DNA of 42,213 nucleotides. Source: a virus. A program made the translations under genes and the position numbers. The DNA lies in the IMG/VR virus record IMGVR_UViG_3300010042_000005, positions 1 through 42,213 of that record; one strand, written 5' to 3'. This document shows positions 10,216-41,563 of the stretch, piece by piece. Position 1 is the stretch's first letter, and each line of letters starts with the position of its first letter. The notes below the pieces were generated by a model. It searched no databases. It saw nothing but the letters and a program-made list of their open reading frames with translations, and had not been told where the DNA came from.

Positions 10216-13200
10216 TCACTTGGCTGGAGGGCCGAACAGAATGCCCCGCGCAATCGTTAGGGCGTCAGCTTCCATCTCTCCCTCGCCAACGTCATAGAAC
10301 GTGCGGGTAGCTCTGTTGACCTGGGACGATGGCAGGCCGGTGAGCATCCCCACAGCAGAGGTCATATTTGTTACGAGTGCTTCCGACTTACTGGAGTTCG
10401 TGGCTTTGATCGCCGCGTCAATCCCGCCGCCCAGTGGTGATGCACCGCCGTAGCCAAAATCAGAGAACAGACCAGCAGCGGCATCACGCGCCAGCGGCAC
10501 GCCGTTGGTAACGCTGAGCAGGGTTTGAATGGCCAGGTACTCAGCCCAGCCAGGTTTCTTATCGTCGTCATCATCGCCGTCAGGGAGTGCGCCTTTCACT
10601 GCGCCGGCCAAGATCGACGGGATCACGTTGAGGTAAACGAAACGCTCCAGGGCAACCAACACGCCCTTGGCGTCTTTCTCCCTCAGCGCCTGCCTGCCAC
10701 TGCGCGCGATATCCACGTTGCGGTTCCACAGCAGGGAGGCGTAGCCGTAGACCATCAGGAAGAACTTGGCCATTTCGTTCTGTTGGATTGGTGACAGGTC
10801 CTTTGCGCCGCCGGCCATCTGCGTGAGGCGAACAGCCCGGTCAGCAGCGTGGATTGCATCCTGGCCGCCGTTCGCACTGTTGGCCCCGCCGTTGGCCTCG
10901 TAGGCCGCCATCCAAACCGGCGTATCAACCACCGACTGCATGGCTGACATCGGAACGAAGGCATACCGCTTGATGGCGTCACGCCCATTGGCCAGCTTGT
11001 TCATGGCTGTACCAATGCGGCCTTCGCCCACGCGAATGATTTGCTCAGTAGCCGCACGAATGGCTGGGTCGAGGTTTACCGCCCGATTGCGCATCTCGGC
11101 AGACAGTTCCATCACCAGGGCACGCTGCTTAATTGGGTCCATGGCGAACTTGGCGATGGCGCGCATGTATTCCTTGCGCTGCCCTTTCTGCGCGAAGTAG
11201 TCCAGCGCCTGGGCGTAGCCGCCGAACTGGTTGAGCATTGTGGTAACGCTGTAGCCCATCCAGGCCACGGCAGCGTTTCCGCGCAGGGCCGACATGGTAC
11301 GGCGGAACACACCGATACCCTTTGCGGAACCAGGCGCCAGATCGTTGGCGATACCGTCCAACACGTTAACGAATTGCTGAGCTTGAAACGGCCCCATACG
11401 CTCGTTCATCACGGCACGCACAGTCGGGGCTGTGATCAGCTTTCGGGCGTCAGCGATGGCGACCCGGTGCGTCAGGTCATGAATCACGCCGCTGATGTGG
11501 TTGGCGATCATGGTCACGTCAAGCACGATGGGTGCAGCGAAGCCGTCGATACGCGCCTTGGTGTGGCCCTTCGGCGTGCTGGCGCGCACACCGCCTTGCT
11601 CGTTGAGCGGAGACAGGTCGCCAAGGTTTCCCAGTACCTTCGCGTAAGCCGGCGACATGAAGTCATACACCAGAGGCCAGTAGCCGCCGGTAACAACGCC
11701 GTGCTGCGTGGTGATGGGGGTAGGCTCTACCTTGTCCGGGGAAACGCCGTTCACTTGCTTTTCAAGTGCGACGATATCGGGCCACAGCGATTCCACGGTG
11801 TCCCACATGTTTTGCACATACTGCCAATCGTCTTTGTCCAGTCGGCCAATGATGTCGGCGTGGGAGGCTTCAGGGATTTTGTTCCCGTCCAGCAGCTTTT
11901 TCAGGTTGCTGGCGTTACCGCTGTTGAGCGCCACAGCCAGCATGCCGTTGTAGTCCAGAGATCCGACGCCTGGGATGTCGAAGCGTTGGCCAGCCTTGGA
12001 ACCCTTAGCGTCAAACCACGCTTTGGTTGCGTCCAGAATTTCCTTGGTGATCTTCCGGTTTAGATCATCGCGACGCCCCTGGGCTTCAGCCAGAGGCTGC
12101 CACCAGATGCTCGACCATGCACCGTTCGGATCACCGCCATCGGCCTGCTCAATGATCTGCTCCAACTTCATCAGCGAGCTGTTGCCCTCGGCCATCCAGT
12201 CGCCCATTGCTTGGGGAAGCGTGCGGCTGGAGTCGTTGAGAGCGCGCGGAGCCTGGCGCTTTAGGTTGTCGGTCATTGCGCGAATCAGTAGGGCCTCTGC
12301 TTCTTTCTGATCCTTCACCTTTTTGTTGGCCTGCAGCTTGCCCTTCAGCTTCGACAAGTGGTCAAGGTGCGCCACGAACTCGTCGAGTTCCTGCAACTGC
12401 GCCAGGCTCAGTTCCTTGTAGTTGGTCCGGCCCATGCTGTTCAGGATGAACTCGGGCACCACAGGGTCATTACCGGCTGCCACCTGATCGTTGTACCACT
12501 CACCGAACGTCTTGCGCTTGTCGAGCTGGCGCAGGCTGACGTTGCGGAATTCGTACTGCTCCATCACCGCGTCGATCTGGTCGAGGAAGTCACCGCCGGC
12601 CTTGCCGATACGCTGACGCACGCTGTTGCGGTTGTAGGTGTTGAGCTTGGTCACCATGCCGTCTATATCTGCGCGGGCCTTCACCGCTTCCCTGTACAGG
12701 TAGAAGTTCAGCAACTGGCGCTGTTTGGCCTGATACGCGGCATCGAAGTCGCCCTTGGTGAAAGCCTGGAACGTCTCACGGGAAGCCTTAGCCTCGGCGC
12801 GCTGGTATTCGGCTGGCTGGATGTCGCGCACCTTGCGCTCGGACATCACCCGGCGGGCGGCCTCTTTGAGGATTTGCTGCGAGGTGACGTTCTTGCGATT
12901 GCCCACCTGGGCCAGCCGGCGCAACTCTTTCGCCAGCACGTCAGCGCGGCGCTCGTTGTGAATGGCGGCCTGGGCTTTGTCTGCCGATTCGCCGTTGGCG
13001 CGCAGGGTGCCGTGGCGTTCTTCCATTCGGCGATTCGCTTCGTCCTGCACAACCATGTTGCGCGGCAGTGCGCCCATGATCGCCTTCACCAGCGCGTCGC
13101 CAGACTCAAAGCCCAGCATGTTCGCAGCCATGTCCAGCGGTACGCCTGTGCGGCTATGCATGAAGGCCATGCGCTGGGTTACGGGCTTGCCGTAGCGCTC

Positions 13201-16200
13201 GGACAATTCAGCACTGTTGAGCTTGATGGTGCCTTCGCTGCCGTCTGGCATCTCCCCGGTGCGCAGCGCCTTGATGGCGGCATACTCCGGCTGAAGATCA
13301 ACCTCTTCCCCAACCTCCCGGCGAATGCCGTCGAGCTCTTCGCGCCACCACTTGCCACGGCGACGGTCCTCATCGCGCACAATTTCCTCTTCGATGCTGT
13401 CGCGGGCGTGGGTGTGCGCCAGCTCGATGCTGTCCTGATAGGCGGTGAATTCCTGCTCGGTCATGCCGGCGGCCTGGGCATCTTTGAACAGCGGGATGGC
13501 GTTAGCCACTTGCTCGGCGGCCATGATCTGGTCGTCACTGGCTACCAGGCGGTCAAACACCTTGCGCACGTCGTCAGTCAACTCAACATTAAGCCGGCGC
13601 AAGTCTTTGTAGATCGAGATCAGCCAGCGCTTGAAGCGGGCGAACGCGGCTGACAGTTCAGGGCTCGGCGCTTTACCTTCGGCCAGATAGTGCTCAAAGC
13701 CACGGGCGAACTGTTCGTGCTGGTCAACCGTCAGCTCGGCGTCACCCTCGGCACCAACCCACGAACGAATCAGGTTCACGTCGTTCTTGATCTGCTCCGG
13801 CGCGTTCTCGCTGGTGGCCACCTCCTGCATCACTTCGAGGTAGAAGTGCCCCAGTTCATGCACCAGGGTGGACAGGTCGCGTTTCTCGCCAAGGGTAATC
13901 TGGAATTTGCGGTCACCCTGGCCGCGTGGCGTGAAGGTGATAAAGCCACGGGCGTCTTCGTCGTTGGCGCCTTGGTTGAGCCTTGGCTGGCGATACATGG
14001 CCTCACTCACTTCGAAGTCGCGATTCTTTCCCTTGTTCTCGACGAAGCCGAAACGCTTGTAGAAATCGACCAAGCGGCCTTTAGTTCCGCCGAAATCAGA
14101 CGAGGCGGTAAGCGCCAACTGCTTGCCGTTCGCGTCAGCCCAGCCAGTAATGGCCTGCATGATTTTTGTGCCAGTGCCTTGGTTGCGGCCATCCTTTGGC
14201 AGCTCGATGCGCGACAGGGTGACGGTCGGCCCATTCCCCAGTAGATCGAGCTTCAGCCCTGGGTTTTCTTGCTCAAGCCGCTTAACAAAGTCTTGACGGG
14301 TTTCTGTCTGGAAAAGCGTAGTGTCGGCGTCTGGCTCTATTACCTCTTCGCGCCTAAGGGTGGGAATAAAATACGAATCCTCTTCCGCCCTAATCCCGTC
14401 TTCGCCAAGCTCCGTACCGCGTACCCTGTACTGGTCAACCTGCTCCTTGGTCAGGTCCACATAAACGATTCTGCCTTTCCGGTCAGGCCCTCTTCTTCCG
14501 GTTTCTTGGGTGGTTTTGTAGTAGTCGGCATATTCAAGATCGGGCGTAAACCAACCCCCGACTTTTCCGTCAGGTGCGTCATCCGTAATGAACACATCCC
14601 TATCGTGGTTCTTGTGCTCACCGCGATAGAGCCGCGTCATTCCTGGCGCAGGCGGCGGGCTATTTTCTGTCAGCAACTTTGTCCCTTTTGGAGCGGTAAC
14701 CTCCGCCTTCACGGTACGGAAAGCAGACCGGCGCGCAGCCTCGCCAGCTGGGGAGAAGCTGCCGGCAGGTGCAAACGGATCACGTCGAACCAGGGCGGCA
14801 GCCAGGGCGGCACCTATGCCACGGCCCTGCGCTTCGTCCACAACAATGCTCAGCGTTTCGCCATCTTGGTTCTCGATCTGGCCAACGGCCTTACCGTCCT
14901 GCACGGCGTAGAGAATGCCCTGCTCGTCAGCGACGATCTGCACCGGGTTGCCCTGCTTGTCGGTGAACTCCGATACCGGCTGCGCATCGGCGGGCACGGA
15001 AAGGTCGCCGGCCTTCACGATCACAATGTCGTCTTCGGCGGTTCGCTTGTTGTCCGGATTCACGGCGGCAATGTATTCGTCCTCAGTCATGCCAGCCAGG
15101 CGTTCAAGGTCGGACTGGTTCAGGCGGGCTTCAGTAGGCGCGGCCTGCTCAGCGACAGACGCCGAATTCATCTCGCTACCATTCCACCAGACAATCGCCT
15201 GATCTACCGGTGTGTCGGCGGTCTGCTCGGGGCTGGCGGCGCGGCGCTCGTCGGCGGTCATGGTGCGACGGGCCTCGGTGTTGCGGGCCTCGACTTCGCC
15301 AGCCAGGCGCTTGTAGGTGCTGGTTGGATTGCCAATGGTGCGCATGACCTTTTCAGCCATCTGCACGCGCTGGTCGATGGCCTCGGAGCTTTCCGCGCCT
15401 TTGGCGTCCTGCATCTGCTGATCGGTGATCGCCCGCTCAAAGATATCGGTCAAGTCTCTGGCGGCCTGCTCGTAATCACCGCCGTTGCGCTCAGCCTCGA
15501 CACGCAAGCTGGAAACTGTTGCCCAATAATCCCGGTCGGCCAGAGCTTGATCTTTCTCGGCGCGCAGTACTTCCGGAGAGCCACCAGTGGCGAAACCCTC
15601 TCGCGCCTGAATTGCGTGCTGAATCTCGTGCATCAGAACGTCGAGGGCTGGGGGCTCACCTTCTTGGTAAGTAGTTGGGTCGCCGATCTCAATGAATGAG
15701 CCGGCAATGCCCCGGCCGGGCTGGGCAGAAAACATGCCGCCACCACGACGGCCAGGATTCACGCGCAGACCAACCTGGGCAAGTTCAGGGTATGCAGCGA
15801 GCAAAGCAGGATGCTCGAGCACGTCGGCCAGAGTGACGCCTTCGCTCTGCTCTGCCCGGTCGACCCATTCGTCAAGAGGTTTGAACTGGGCGGTGCTGTC
15901 GTCAATCTCAAAGCGCCAACGACCGTCAGCGCCCTGGAACCAACCGGTATCCTTGCGCACCTGTTCGGCGTTTTCACCATCAGCGATCCGCGCCTTGGCA
16001 TCGTTCAGCGAAACGCCGTCAGCAGTCCATGCGGTAGGGCCGGCGAACTGATCGAGGCGCTGGCCTTGGGCGTCAGGCTGTTGATCGCCGCGCAACACCG
16101 CCAGGGCTTCGTCGTCGCTGAGCTCGTTGATGTCCAGGCCCAACTTGCCGAAGTAGTCACCTAGCTCCGTCAACAGTGCAGCCTGATCGCGCAGCGTGGC

Positions 16201-18579
16201 GTTCTCCTGCTCTGCGCTGTAACGCGGCTTTCCAGCCATCTCATCGCGTACTGCGTCGACGATCAGTTGTGGAGTGACATCCTCGCGGGCAACACCTGGG
16301 AAGTAACCATTCTCCCAGGCCGCCATGGCTGCGTCGTCCAGGCTGCGGCCATCTTTGCGGGCCAACCGGTTGCGGCCAACCTTGCCCACGTCAGCATCAA
16401 GCGCAGCCAGTTCGCCGCCGGCATCGTTCAGACCACCGGAGTCGCGCAGGTATTCGCTGATCGACTTGCCGAACATGTCGCCGGCCTTTGGGATGTCGCC
16501 GGCACGCAAACGTTGGATTGCCAGGCGAGCGTCATCGACAGGGACTGCACGCAACTGCTCCGGCGCTTTGGTGCGAATGTCCAGCGGGAACTGTTGGCGA
16601 AGCTGATCAAGCGCCTGCCCGGTGCGCTCAGCCAGGTTGTTCAGGACCGACAGGTGCAGCGCGGCGTATTGCTCGGCGTCCTGCCGGCGGAAGCCTGCCT
16701 GAATAAGCTCGCCCATAACCTCGCGGTGCGCAACCGCTTGAACGTCTGGTCCCTTGGCAAATTCCTCGGCGATGTTTCCGATCTGTTCTTCCTGCTGCCC
16801 GGTCCAGACCTTGGCATCCTCAACGCTCATTCCGTCAACTGTCAGCCGAACGCTGCTGCTCAACTGCTGGTTGTAGTCGGCCAGGTAGGTCAGATAATCG
16901 GCACCGGTCATGCTGATGCTGCCACCACGGGCAACAGCGTCGGCGTACTGCTCAGTAAGGCCAGGAACTTTTGCCAACAGCGCTGGGATATCAACCTGGC
17001 TGGATTGGTTAAGGCGTTGCAGGGCTTCAGCTGGGAGCCACACTGTTTGCATCGGGCTATCGGCCAATTGCTGGGTGACCAGTTCGTGAAAGCTGCCTGG
17101 ATCTTCAGCACGCAGTTTGCTGGCCAAGGCCGCCTCGGCTGCTGCGTCCATGCTCTTGCTGCCAGCGCGGGCTTCGCGGGATTGCTTCAGGCCGGTGTTG
17201 ATGCGCGCCATAAGCCGTGGGCCACCAAACGCCAAGACATCGAGCGAAGAGCCAGCGGCACCCGCCACGCTCTCCAGCAGCACCTCGCCAGCATCCACTT
17301 TGCCCTCGGCAGCGAATTGGCCAGCGGCTTCGCCAGCGCCCTCGCTAATGCCTTGCACGGGGAATTGCACCGCAAGGTTGGCAACCTCTCGCTGGGTTTC
17401 GCTCAGTGGACGTCCAGCGAAGCGCGTAGGCGCAAGAAGTCGGCCAGCTAGGCCCATGCCTAAGGTATCCACGGCGGTGGTGCCAGCGGCCTTTAATGCG
17501 GCCTTGCTGCGAGCTGTTGTCATCAGGTCGTCGTCTTGCAGCGCTTCCAGTACGGCCTTGGGGTTGTTGAAGTCCACCCCCGCCTCGCGCAACACGTCGG
17601 AAAATTTAACGTCGTATTCAGTGCCGAAGCCGGCAGCAGCCGCGCCACCCACGCCGGTAAGAGCGCCGGCCACCAGCATAGGTGCTGACGAAACAATTGC
17701 GCCGGCAGACGTGCGCAGCGCAAAGCCTGGGTTCTCGCCAATGGATTGCAGGGTGGCGTCAAAGCTTGATTCGCCAAGGCCTTCGATCACCTGCCGTTCG
17801 GTACCGCCAAGCGGGATGCCGATCTGCTCATTGGATTGCAGTTCTTGGATACGGCGCGCACCAGGCTCAACAGGGTTGGCGTCGAGCTCCTGTTGCGTCT
17901 CGCTGATGTTCTGCGCTTGCTTGAGTTGCTGGCCACCAAGACGCTCACGCATTGCCAGGCGCTGCTCAGGATTTGAATTCAGGTAGTCGAAGGCGAATCC
18001 AGTTGGCCCACCTTTACCCTCGTAAGGCTGCCGGCCCTCTGCCTGTGCGGCAGCTACCTCGGCGTCGACAGCATCCAGACTGGTGCCGATGCGCTGCATG
18101 TCGCGGATCTTCGACAGGTCAGAGCCCTGGCCCATCTGCGAAACCTGTGCTGACACCGCACCGAACAGCTTTTCACCGGCGCTCATCTTATTGAACTGGG
18201 AATCTTGCGCAGCGCCCTCGATCAGCTTCAGCGTGTCGAGGTCGTCCTGGCTGACAGCCGCCAGATTGCCGTCACGCATGGCGTTGGCGGTCTTCCGGTA
18301 CTGGTCAAAGATGGTGCCGTAGTAGGTGGATTTCTCGGACTCGTCGAGCTGGTCCTTGTTGCGGTAGAGCACATCGGCAGGCAGAGCCAGCTTGCGACCA
18401 GCTGCCGAAGCCTTGCGGTAGGTGCCTGGATCGAGAGTGGAGACGACCTGAAGCGTGCTCATAAAGTCCAAGCGATCAGCGTCCTGCTCGACGCGCAAGG
18501 TGTCTCCAAGGGTTGGAAGCGCCGAGCCTTCCGGCTTATCTGCAACTGGCTGCTTAAAGCCTGGAATCTCGATGCTCAT
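10216..18579 (-). CDS. Giant polyvalent internal virion protein (2787 aa)
   Basis: It stands where T7-like phages have the gp16 ejection protein. It is built of many segments: hydrophobic stretch about 280-310; HEIQH metalloprotease-like motif at 984-988; GNAT-like segment around 1225-1285 with QGRGIG; ADP-ribosyltransferase-like segment with RLYRG at 1316-1320 and GGWFT at 1341-1345; a second GNAT-like segment about 1440-1520 (RNQGTGT, FYKRFGF); HELGH at 1574-1578; then over 1100 mostly helical residues with GGYWPL, typical of large polyvalent phage proteins. Such proteins are packaged and injected with the DNA, and are thought to act on host targets. Activity of each segment is inference. 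It is coupled to the upstream transglycosylase gene by ATGA. Confidence 0.9.
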
Positions 18580-40386: not shown

Positions 40387-41108
40387 TTGTAATTCCCCTC
40401 AACCACTTTTTTGAAATTGCCCTTTGTCAAAAACCAATCGAAGGCAAAAGAATTTCGCTCCATCAGGAACGGTGTTTTTGATATATCCGTGAAATACCTC
40501 TCCCACCAATCGACGCTCTGAAACCTCTTGTCGCTGTTCCAGCGATCCCTCAATTTCTTTTTGCGGTCCTCATCGAAAAGCCGTGGTTTTGGTTTCTTCG
40601 GAAGTATTCGCGAATAAGCGGCCAGAATTTCTTCGTATGGTACCGGTGGCTTTTCTGGTCTAAGAAACCCGCAATCGTCATCGCCAGATGACAAGGGTTT
40701 TTGATCTTCTTCTTGTAGTTCTAGATCTTCTTTATTGTGGTCAACTGCTGGCGATCTGCTGGTCATCTGTTGGTTATTTGCTGGCGATGTGTCTTGGTAC
40801 AAAGCCCAGTTAGTTATTGAAATGATTGAGAATTTGCTCTCTGATTTGATGGTTATCTGCTGGAGACTTTCGAGCACTTTTAGAGCGCCGCGAACAATAC
40901 TCTCGGAAACACCAGTCCTTTCAGAGAATTTATGGCGCCCGAACACCAATTGCCCTGGTTTTAACCTGACAACTTGTCTTCCTACGAGAACTTCCCCTTC
41001 TTTGTAGGAGGCGGAAAGTATCAAGTGAATCCAGACAGACAGGTACTCAGGTTTCGATGCAATGGCGCTGGTCAAGAGCTTCCTTGAGACCTTCACCCAA
41101 CTCGACAT
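40383..41108 (-). CDS. Replication initiator, lambda O-like (241 aa)
   Basis: Residues about 1-110 form a winged-helix domain (KLLTSAI, then FGRHKFSERTGVSESIVRGALKVLE and a wing) like the DNA-binding part of lambda O. Then comes a polar linker, about 105-160, and a C-terminal helical domain with RDRWNSDKRF and WWERYFTDISKTPFL, as in initiators that contact the helicase. Iterons lie within the gene, over the linker and the end of the winged helix, matching the place of lambda ori in O. The gene is AT-rich compared with its neighbours. AGGGGA precedes the ATG. Confidence 0.82.
   Translation of the reverse strand: MSSWVKVSRKLLTSAIASKPEYLSVWIHLILSASYKEGEVLVGRQVVRLKPGQLVFGRHKFSERTGVSESIVRGALKVLESLQQITIKSESKFSIISITNWALYQDTSPANNQQMTSRSPAVDHNKEDLELQEEDQKPLSSGDDDCGFLRPEKPPVPYEEILAAYSRILPKKPKPRLFDEDRKKKLRDRWNSDKRFQSVDWWERYFTDISKTPFLMERNSFAFDWFLTKGNFKKVVEGNYK
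40745..40788 (+). repeat. Four tandem 11-base iterons
   Basis: Units at 40745, 40756, 40767 and 40778 read CTGCTGGCGAT, CTGCTGGTCAT, CTGTTGGTTAT and TTGCTGGCGAT. The 11-base period is out of step with codons, so the repetition is not caused by a repeated protein sequence. Confidence 0.9.
40846..40867 (+). repeat. Two further iteron copies
   Basis: TTGATGGTTAT at 40846 and CTGCTGGAGAC at 40857 each match units of the main cluster at nine of eleven positions and abut each other in the same direction and spacing. Confidence 0.7.
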
Positions 41109-41110
41109 GG

Positions 41111-41359
41111 TTATCCCCTAACCTCAAGGGCTTCAACAATTTCGCAGTCTGGCTGGCCCCGGTCGTTTAAATCGTGCGTGATCTCGTCTCGCTCAACAGC
41201 TAGCGGCATGTTGTGGTTGATGAATTGAGCTATCAGCCTTGCCTGCCAAGGGCGCAGCACAATGTAATTTTGCTCACCAGAATCCCGGTCGATGCTTCTC
41301 AGCATGTAATTAGCATCAATCAAGCGGATAGAAACCTTGTCACCGTTTTCAAGTTCCAT
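41111..41359 (-). CDS. Small hypothetical early protein (82 aa)
   Basis: This 82-residue acidic protein starts with an N-terminal beta-like stretch (LENGDKVSIRLID) and ends in a charged tail. GGAGG lies about eight bases before the ATG, overlapping the end of the Cro-like gene. It precedes the initiator gene by two bases. A regulator or initiator accessory is possible; no family is recognised. Confidence 0.7.
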   Translation of the reverse strand: MELENGDKVSIRLIDANYMLRSIDRDSGEQNYIVLRPWQARLIAQFINHNMPLAVERDEITHDLNDRGQPDCEIVEALEVRG

Positions 41360-41362
41360 AGC

Positions 41363-41563
41363 TCATTCCTCCCCCAACGCCACAAACTCGCTGGCCTTCA
41401 TACCGAAGGCGCCGGCCAGAAGCCTGATCGTCGATGCGGTGGCCTCTGGATTGTTTGCCAGTTGATTGAGCCAGCTTGAGCTGCGGCCCAATCGTTCAGC
41501 CAACTGGTTCTGTTTCATGTCGTGCTTTGCCAGCGCGACTTTGATTGACTTGCCGATATTCAT
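41363..41563 (-). CDS. Cro/C1-type helix-turn-helix regulator (66 aa)
   Basis: Residues about 16-38 form a classical helix-turn-helix (MKQNQLAERLG, SSSWLNQLANN), followed by TASTIRLLAGAFGMKASEF, as in small Cro/C1-type repressors. It is the first gene of the leftward operon, with AAAGGAGG upstream, and starts 28 bases from the -10 box of its promoter. It probably binds the inverted repeats between the two divergent promoters and controls both early operons. No separate full-length CI-type repressor is present. Confidence 0.85.
   Translation of the reverse strand: MNIGKSIKVALAKHDMKQNQLAERLGRSSSWLNQLANNPEATASTIRLLAGAFGMKASEFVALGEE

Follow-up and report, generated by a model that had tools for sequence, protein, structure and literature searches.

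Does the initiator gene of this phage carry, within its own coding sequence, the replication origin on which its product would act, and if so, is that origin of the lambda type, as the original prediction held? The window, by which we mean the whole 42,213-nt (42 kb) stretch of the IMG/VR record analyzed here, has a GC content of 58.5% and comes from a tailed phage, with family matches to RecT, an exonuclease, a terminase, a major head protein and a head-tail adaptor. An early leftward run of genes leads from a Cro/C1-type HTH gene through an 82-aa ORF to a 241-aa initiator and a 450-aa DnaB-type helicase, the start of which overlaps the initiator stop (Table 1). From comparison of the initiator gene with its relatives, we consider it very probable that this gene embeds a theta-type replication origin that works through its own initiator and the neighboring helicase in the manner proposed below. 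Judged by the initiator, the isolates in the phage collection that come closest are Orisa and Orimi (66% identity), phages of Pseudomonas syringae, and one scan of bacterial genomes gave no relatives. A group of Pseudomonas-type phages in which the initiator gene is annotated as hypothetical thereby gains a well-supported predicted origin. In the late region, the window also holds a single 2787-aa ORF (10216-18579) whose matches are limited to families of unknown function.

The initiator and the repeats in its linker codons

In the AlphaFold2 model, the initiator folds into a winged helix at its N-terminus (residues ~1-105) and a helical domain at its C-terminus (157-237). A linker (~106-150) joins the two, and its low model confidence, at residues 116-150, suggests that it is disordered. 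A fold search of the PDB with the model returned generic winged helices only, none at E <= 0.001. Directly after the DNA-binding domain, the coding (minus) strand carries four units and a conserved half unit at an 11-nt step (40735-40785), where a unit is defined by the core ACCAGCA with one change allowed. By the AlphaFold2 domain layout, this array and an A-rich element beyond it fall in the linker codons, which carry TCGCCAGCAAA TAACCAACAGA TGACCAGCAGA TCGCCAGCAGT TGACCACAATAAAGAAG on the coding strand, the last of these being the half unit.

Table 1. Coordinates of genes, domains and sequence elements at the initiator locus (positions in the window; a point marks elements given no strand).
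Feature	Coordinates	Strand	Basis
Cro/C1-type HTH protein (66 aa) that opens the early leftward run	41363..41563	-	Pfam HTH_26 above cut-off
82-aa ORF immediately upstream of initiator	41111..41359	-	ORF list; without family match
Initiator, 241 aa	40383..41108	-	ORF; PHROG 2514 DnaD-like (4e-29), PHROG 345 O-like (3e-28); AlphaFold2 model
Winged-helix DNA-binding domain codons	40794..41108	-	pLDDT ~90 over most; resembles phage replisome organizers in BFVD and generic winged helices in PDB
Weaker pair of units forming cluster 2 (CTCCAGCA, ACCATCA)	40846..40867	-	Wing codons for LQQITIK; synonymously fixed
Further AT-rich stretch separating the two repeat clusters; ranks second among the least stable 40-mers of the window	40811..40850	.	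Stability scan, synonymous identity
Iteron 1, core GCCAGCA	40779..40785	-	Lag-11 score, relatives' alignment
Iteron 2, core ACCAACA	40768..40774	-	Lag-11 score, relatives' alignment
Iteron 3, core ACCAGCA	40757..40763	-	Lag-11 score, relatives' alignment
Iteron 4, core GCCAGCA	40746..40752	-	Lag-11 score, relatives' alignment
Half iteron 5, ACCACAA (ACCAC = 40737-40741)	40735..40741	-	CCACA kept in 14/14 gap-free relatives
A/purine-rich 40-mer, the least stable of the window; a probable DNA unwinding element	40697..40736	.	Stability scan; synonymous identity 0.97-0.98, residues 124-136, n=15
DnaB-type replicative helicase, 450 aa	39034..40386	-	Pfam DnaB_C 2e-76, DnaB N 7e-23; PHROG 19 7e-100

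The original prediction described four 11-base repeats in perfect tandem at 40745-40788. The spacing is indeed perfect, but the copies are not: Tandem Repeats Finder reports period 11, 4.0 copies and 75% matches over this interval, and the spacings within the repeat family are 11, 11, 11 and 79. No other lag-11 stretch in the window scores as high as the one at 40745 (25/33), and synonymous-codon shuffles of the initiator gene reach this score in 12 of 3000 trials (p ~0.004). Judged on the window alone, the 11-nt repeat is moderately improbable, and the case for it is built on the relatives rather than on this one genome.

The repeats were also said to lie inside the initiator gene and to give different amino acids in each unit. 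We do find that they are read in a frame that changes from one unit to the next, with successive units encoding PA / NQQ / TS / PA / DH. Such an arrangement bears directly on the idea that the repeats are a by-product of a low-complexity, Q/S/T/P-rich protein linker. A linker predicted to be disordered could tolerate repeats, but 11 nt is no multiple of three, and among relatives the core is conserved at all codon positions, together with synonymous sites, while the encoded residues differ. We rejected the protein-repeat explanation on this conservation independent of codon position, and regard it as barely credible.

Constraint on the DNA and a proposed mechanism

Synonymous identity was computed in 12-codon windows across 15 related phage genes, the window's own gene counted among them. 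It rises from ~0.38-0.57 over initiator residues 1-84 (~0.45 for the greater part of the upstream domain) through ~0.68-0.77 (residues 77-116) to 0.90-0.98 at residues 109-140, the segment that holds the array and the A-rich stretch that follows. All five units keep the core CCA without change in the 14 gap-free sequences, despite a codon position that differs from unit to unit, and the core holds ~1.8 bits in each of the three codon positions, against 0.7-1.0 for the spacers (p = 1.3e-7). One related gene (L006) has lost residues before the array and gained residues after it, and keeps four full in-phase units. Across the 15 related genes, the 11-nt phase is retained while residues vary, the outcome that the original prediction had named as its alignment check. 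Its claim that the repeats are kept for DNA function is likewise borne out by the synonymous identity at the array and the conservation of the core in every codon position, and comparison of these genes indicates that the array is maintained for a function of the DNA and not for the encoded protein. Structure in the initiator mRNA, acting in translation or termination control, could also produce synonymous constraint; however, fixed 11-nt direct repeats, with iteron words that change along with the DNA-binding domain, point to protein-DNA recognition, and an RNA element seems to us most implausible.

When all 40-mers of the 42 kb are ranked by stability, the two at the bottom sit on opposite sides of the array. 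The first corresponds to a T-rich, low-GC stretch that had been noticed beside the repeats, and this description is accurate: 40698-40744 has 30% GC, against 58.5% for the window, contains the bulk of the least stable 40-mer, and has a coding-strand purine content of 70%. All 14 sequences listed are A-rich in the corresponding segment. The second of these 40-mers, on the other side of the array, had been overlooked.

Two further repeat copies predicted at 40846-40867, here called cluster 2, are real as sequence and are synonymously constrained. Cluster 2 lies 79 nt from the main array, which is not a multiple of 11, and it is thus out of phase. We initially suspected that it reflected nothing but coding constraint on LQQITIK, and dropped this explanation on finding that the synonymous sites L82 CTC, T86 ACC, I87 ATC and K88 AAA are fixed in 15/15 sequences. 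Because of this fixation we retained cluster 2 as a candidate part of the origin, possibly a second binding site, though its role is uncertain.

From this layout we infer a course of events that runs from initiator binding and its monomer stoichiometry, through melting and helicase delivery, to origin activity. Each 11-bp iteron would most likely be bound by the winged-helix domain of a single monomer, which would place one initiator at every helical turn on one face of the DNA, a geometry that we read from the pitch alone. As the array occupies codons of a putatively disordered linker, the DNA would be free to keep the array sequence. Once assembled on the array, the initiator would strain the adjoining A-rich element and cause it to melt, and the AT-rich stretch on the other side may melt too. 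Next, the C-terminal domain would recruit the DnaB-type helicase that the phage itself encodes in the gene that follows and deliver it to the single strand, with host primase and polymerase coming after the helicase.

The same contacts could serve regulation. Initiators of iteron replicons commonly autoregulate, and an initiator bound to the array would block transcription as well, such that the repeats might be bound mainly for autorepression or copy-number control while the origin lies elsewhere. Set against this, the array sits mid-gene rather than at a promoter, the window's two least stable stretches flank it, and an equivalent layout in HK620 and phage L is annotated as an origin, by annotation or prediction and not by footprint. 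We consider the operator reading very unlikely. GC skew, a check proposed along with the origin, gave no independent sign of one, as its extremes are simply the two ends of the window.

Relationship to lambda and to other proposed embedded origins

The label of a lambda-type origin is apt for the overall design and not for the parts. As in lambda, iterons and then asymmetric A-rich DNA lie within the initiator gene, and iterons within the initiator gene are likewise a feature of P22 gene 18. In the strict sense, a lambda-type origin would have a homolog of lambda O that binds as dimers to four long iterons, and a P-type loader for the host DnaB. The pitch, the protein family and the downstream gene all differ here. 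Repeats in lambda ori and P22 gene 18 are spaced ~20-24 nt apart, those of lambda being four iterons of ~18-20 bp, and no 11-nt period was seen in the lambda O gene. Both also have another N-terminal domain, and BLAST with either the N or the C half of lambda O gave no match to the window initiator, which is followed by a DnaB-type helicase gene rather than by a P-type loader. We therefore rejected strict lambda membership, which we hold to be highly improbable. A simple palindrome score did not clearly separate lambda iterons from the window units, and for this reason we make no claim about dimers.

An embedded origin with 11-bp iterons fits a design already known from phages L, HK620 and HK022. 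In gene 18 of Salmonella phage L, six imprecise 11-bp repeats have been proposed as the likely origin, and gene 12 of that phage is a DnaB-type helicase (PMC8022706). Phage L resembles the window phage in having repeats inside the initiator gene, a DnaB-type helicase gene next to it and lag 11 as its top period, and its distantly related protein retains recognizable N-terminal homology to the window initiator (N-domain BLAST 43 bits). It differs in its iteron word, TGTCCAACGGA, and in having two clusters of ~2.5 units 66 nt (6 x 11) apart. HK620 shares the identical core ACCAGCA and the 11-nt pitch, under an annotated rep_origin, and in both HK620 and HK022 gene P is a DnaB-type helicase and the initiator has ~25% protein identity to that of the window (tblastn against their O genes, 3e-7 to 2e-6; N-domain BLAST to HK620, 48 bits). 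These two phages have two short clusters in place of the single 4.5-unit array, and a longer N-terminal tail. In HK620 (L009 2318-2413), phage L (L194 1650-1726) and mEp234 (L206 1441-2331), the two clusters are exactly 66 nt apart, and hence in helical phase.

The window phage lacks this layout of two phased clusters, as do its Pseudomonas-type relatives, all of which have a single array, and we do not treat the layout as defining for the HK022/HK620/phage L-type module. The window does have winged-helix homology, 11-bp direct repeats in linker codons and a DnaB-type helicase gene directly downstream, and on these sequence features we assign its phage to the HK022/HK620/phage L class, in a new phage group. 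Orisa and Orimi share the position and pitch of the array and the same helicase gene; their second iteron is degenerate and their initiator is annotated as a hypothetical protein.

More distant systems share parts of this arrangement. Staphylococcus phages with DnaD-like initiators (IME1364_02 and relatives) have a homologous winged helix and many TCAACAACAAA-type units at 11-nt pitch followed by A-rich DNA, but have another C-terminal domain and no adjoining helicase gene. For 80alpha, the evidence for an origin within the initiator gene is genetic: ORF20 was not complementable in trans and ORF20-21 drove autonomous replication, from which the authors place the origin in ORF20 (PMC5499656). 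This initiator has another winged helix, a DnaC-like loader downstream and, in gp20 (L209 40-810), ~15-bp repeats of the GGAAAAACCGTTAAC type, a multiple of three.

Reach of the 11-nt pitch and combinations of domains

Period 11 is top or near-top in almost all of 33 non-redundant homologs, which share kinship and are not independent trials, and it always lies just 3' of the winged helix; some search patterns in this survey contained linker sequence and can favor repeat-bearing genes. Only 1/96 control ORFs has a lag-11 score of at least 22. The 11-nt pitch is present in 36/39 genes with this N-terminal domain, Staphylococcus phages included, and in 1/7 genes with another (Fisher p = 6e-5), at a cut-off of 21 picked after the data were seen and with a small comparison set of seven. 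A pitch reported for phage L alone (PMC8022706) is thus common to a wide initiator family. In open PubMed Central papers, a search for a family-wide 11-bp pitch turned up phage L only, and subscription papers or reviews may already describe the wider occurrence.

The iteron word also varies between groups of genes. Among 74 coliphage-type O genes, many of them close relatives, 62 have ACCAGCA and 12 have TCCAACG. The two groups share 0.46-0.58 identity in the N-terminal domain, with C-terminal domains that are up to identical; the O proteins of HK620 and mEp234, for instance, are 98% alike in the C-terminal domain and 49% in the N-terminal domain. Alignment thus indicates that the iteron word is co-inherited with the N-terminal domain. 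Such natural swaps, in which the same C-terminal domain is joined to a different N-terminal domain and iteron word, make the iteron-reading residues directly testable.

Hybrid initiators of two kinds were seen. The Pseudoalteromonas phage HS2 (L195 1489-2259) and C996 (L199 1501-2418) combine this N-terminal type and an 11-nt array with a lambda-O-like C-terminal domain, and PP9W2, PseuP_224 and YMC P52 combine this C-terminal type with other N-terminal domains, without the 11-nt pitch. Taking these cases further, the winged helix, the 11-bp-pitch array and the A-rich element may form one exchangeable cassette of Gram-negative and Gram-positive phages, fused to different C-terminal domains (with DnaB-type helicase partners, lambda-O-like ends or DnaC-associated ends), with the initiator bound as one monomer per helical turn in a geometry distinct from that of the lambda O-some. 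We give this full reading an even chance; its sequence part is supported by the alignments, and its monomer-per-turn geometry is one we infer.

Several individual genes add to the variety of arrangements. L003-L006, L023 and L025-L027 share the N-terminal domain and array and have different C-terminal domains; the downstream gene encodes a DnaB-type helicase in some of them, and others have no recognized partner. In two initiator genes (L200 1042-1767 and L201 1099-1836) the N-terminal domain is unrelated and looks DUF1376-like by eye; they too contain short repeats spaced at ~11 nt, of AATGCT-type words, perhaps an independent case. In PseuP_224 (L196 1327-2079), the gene annotated as primosomal protein I spans just 1849-2079 and is apparently truncated, as the open frame from 1327 covers a full-length initiator.
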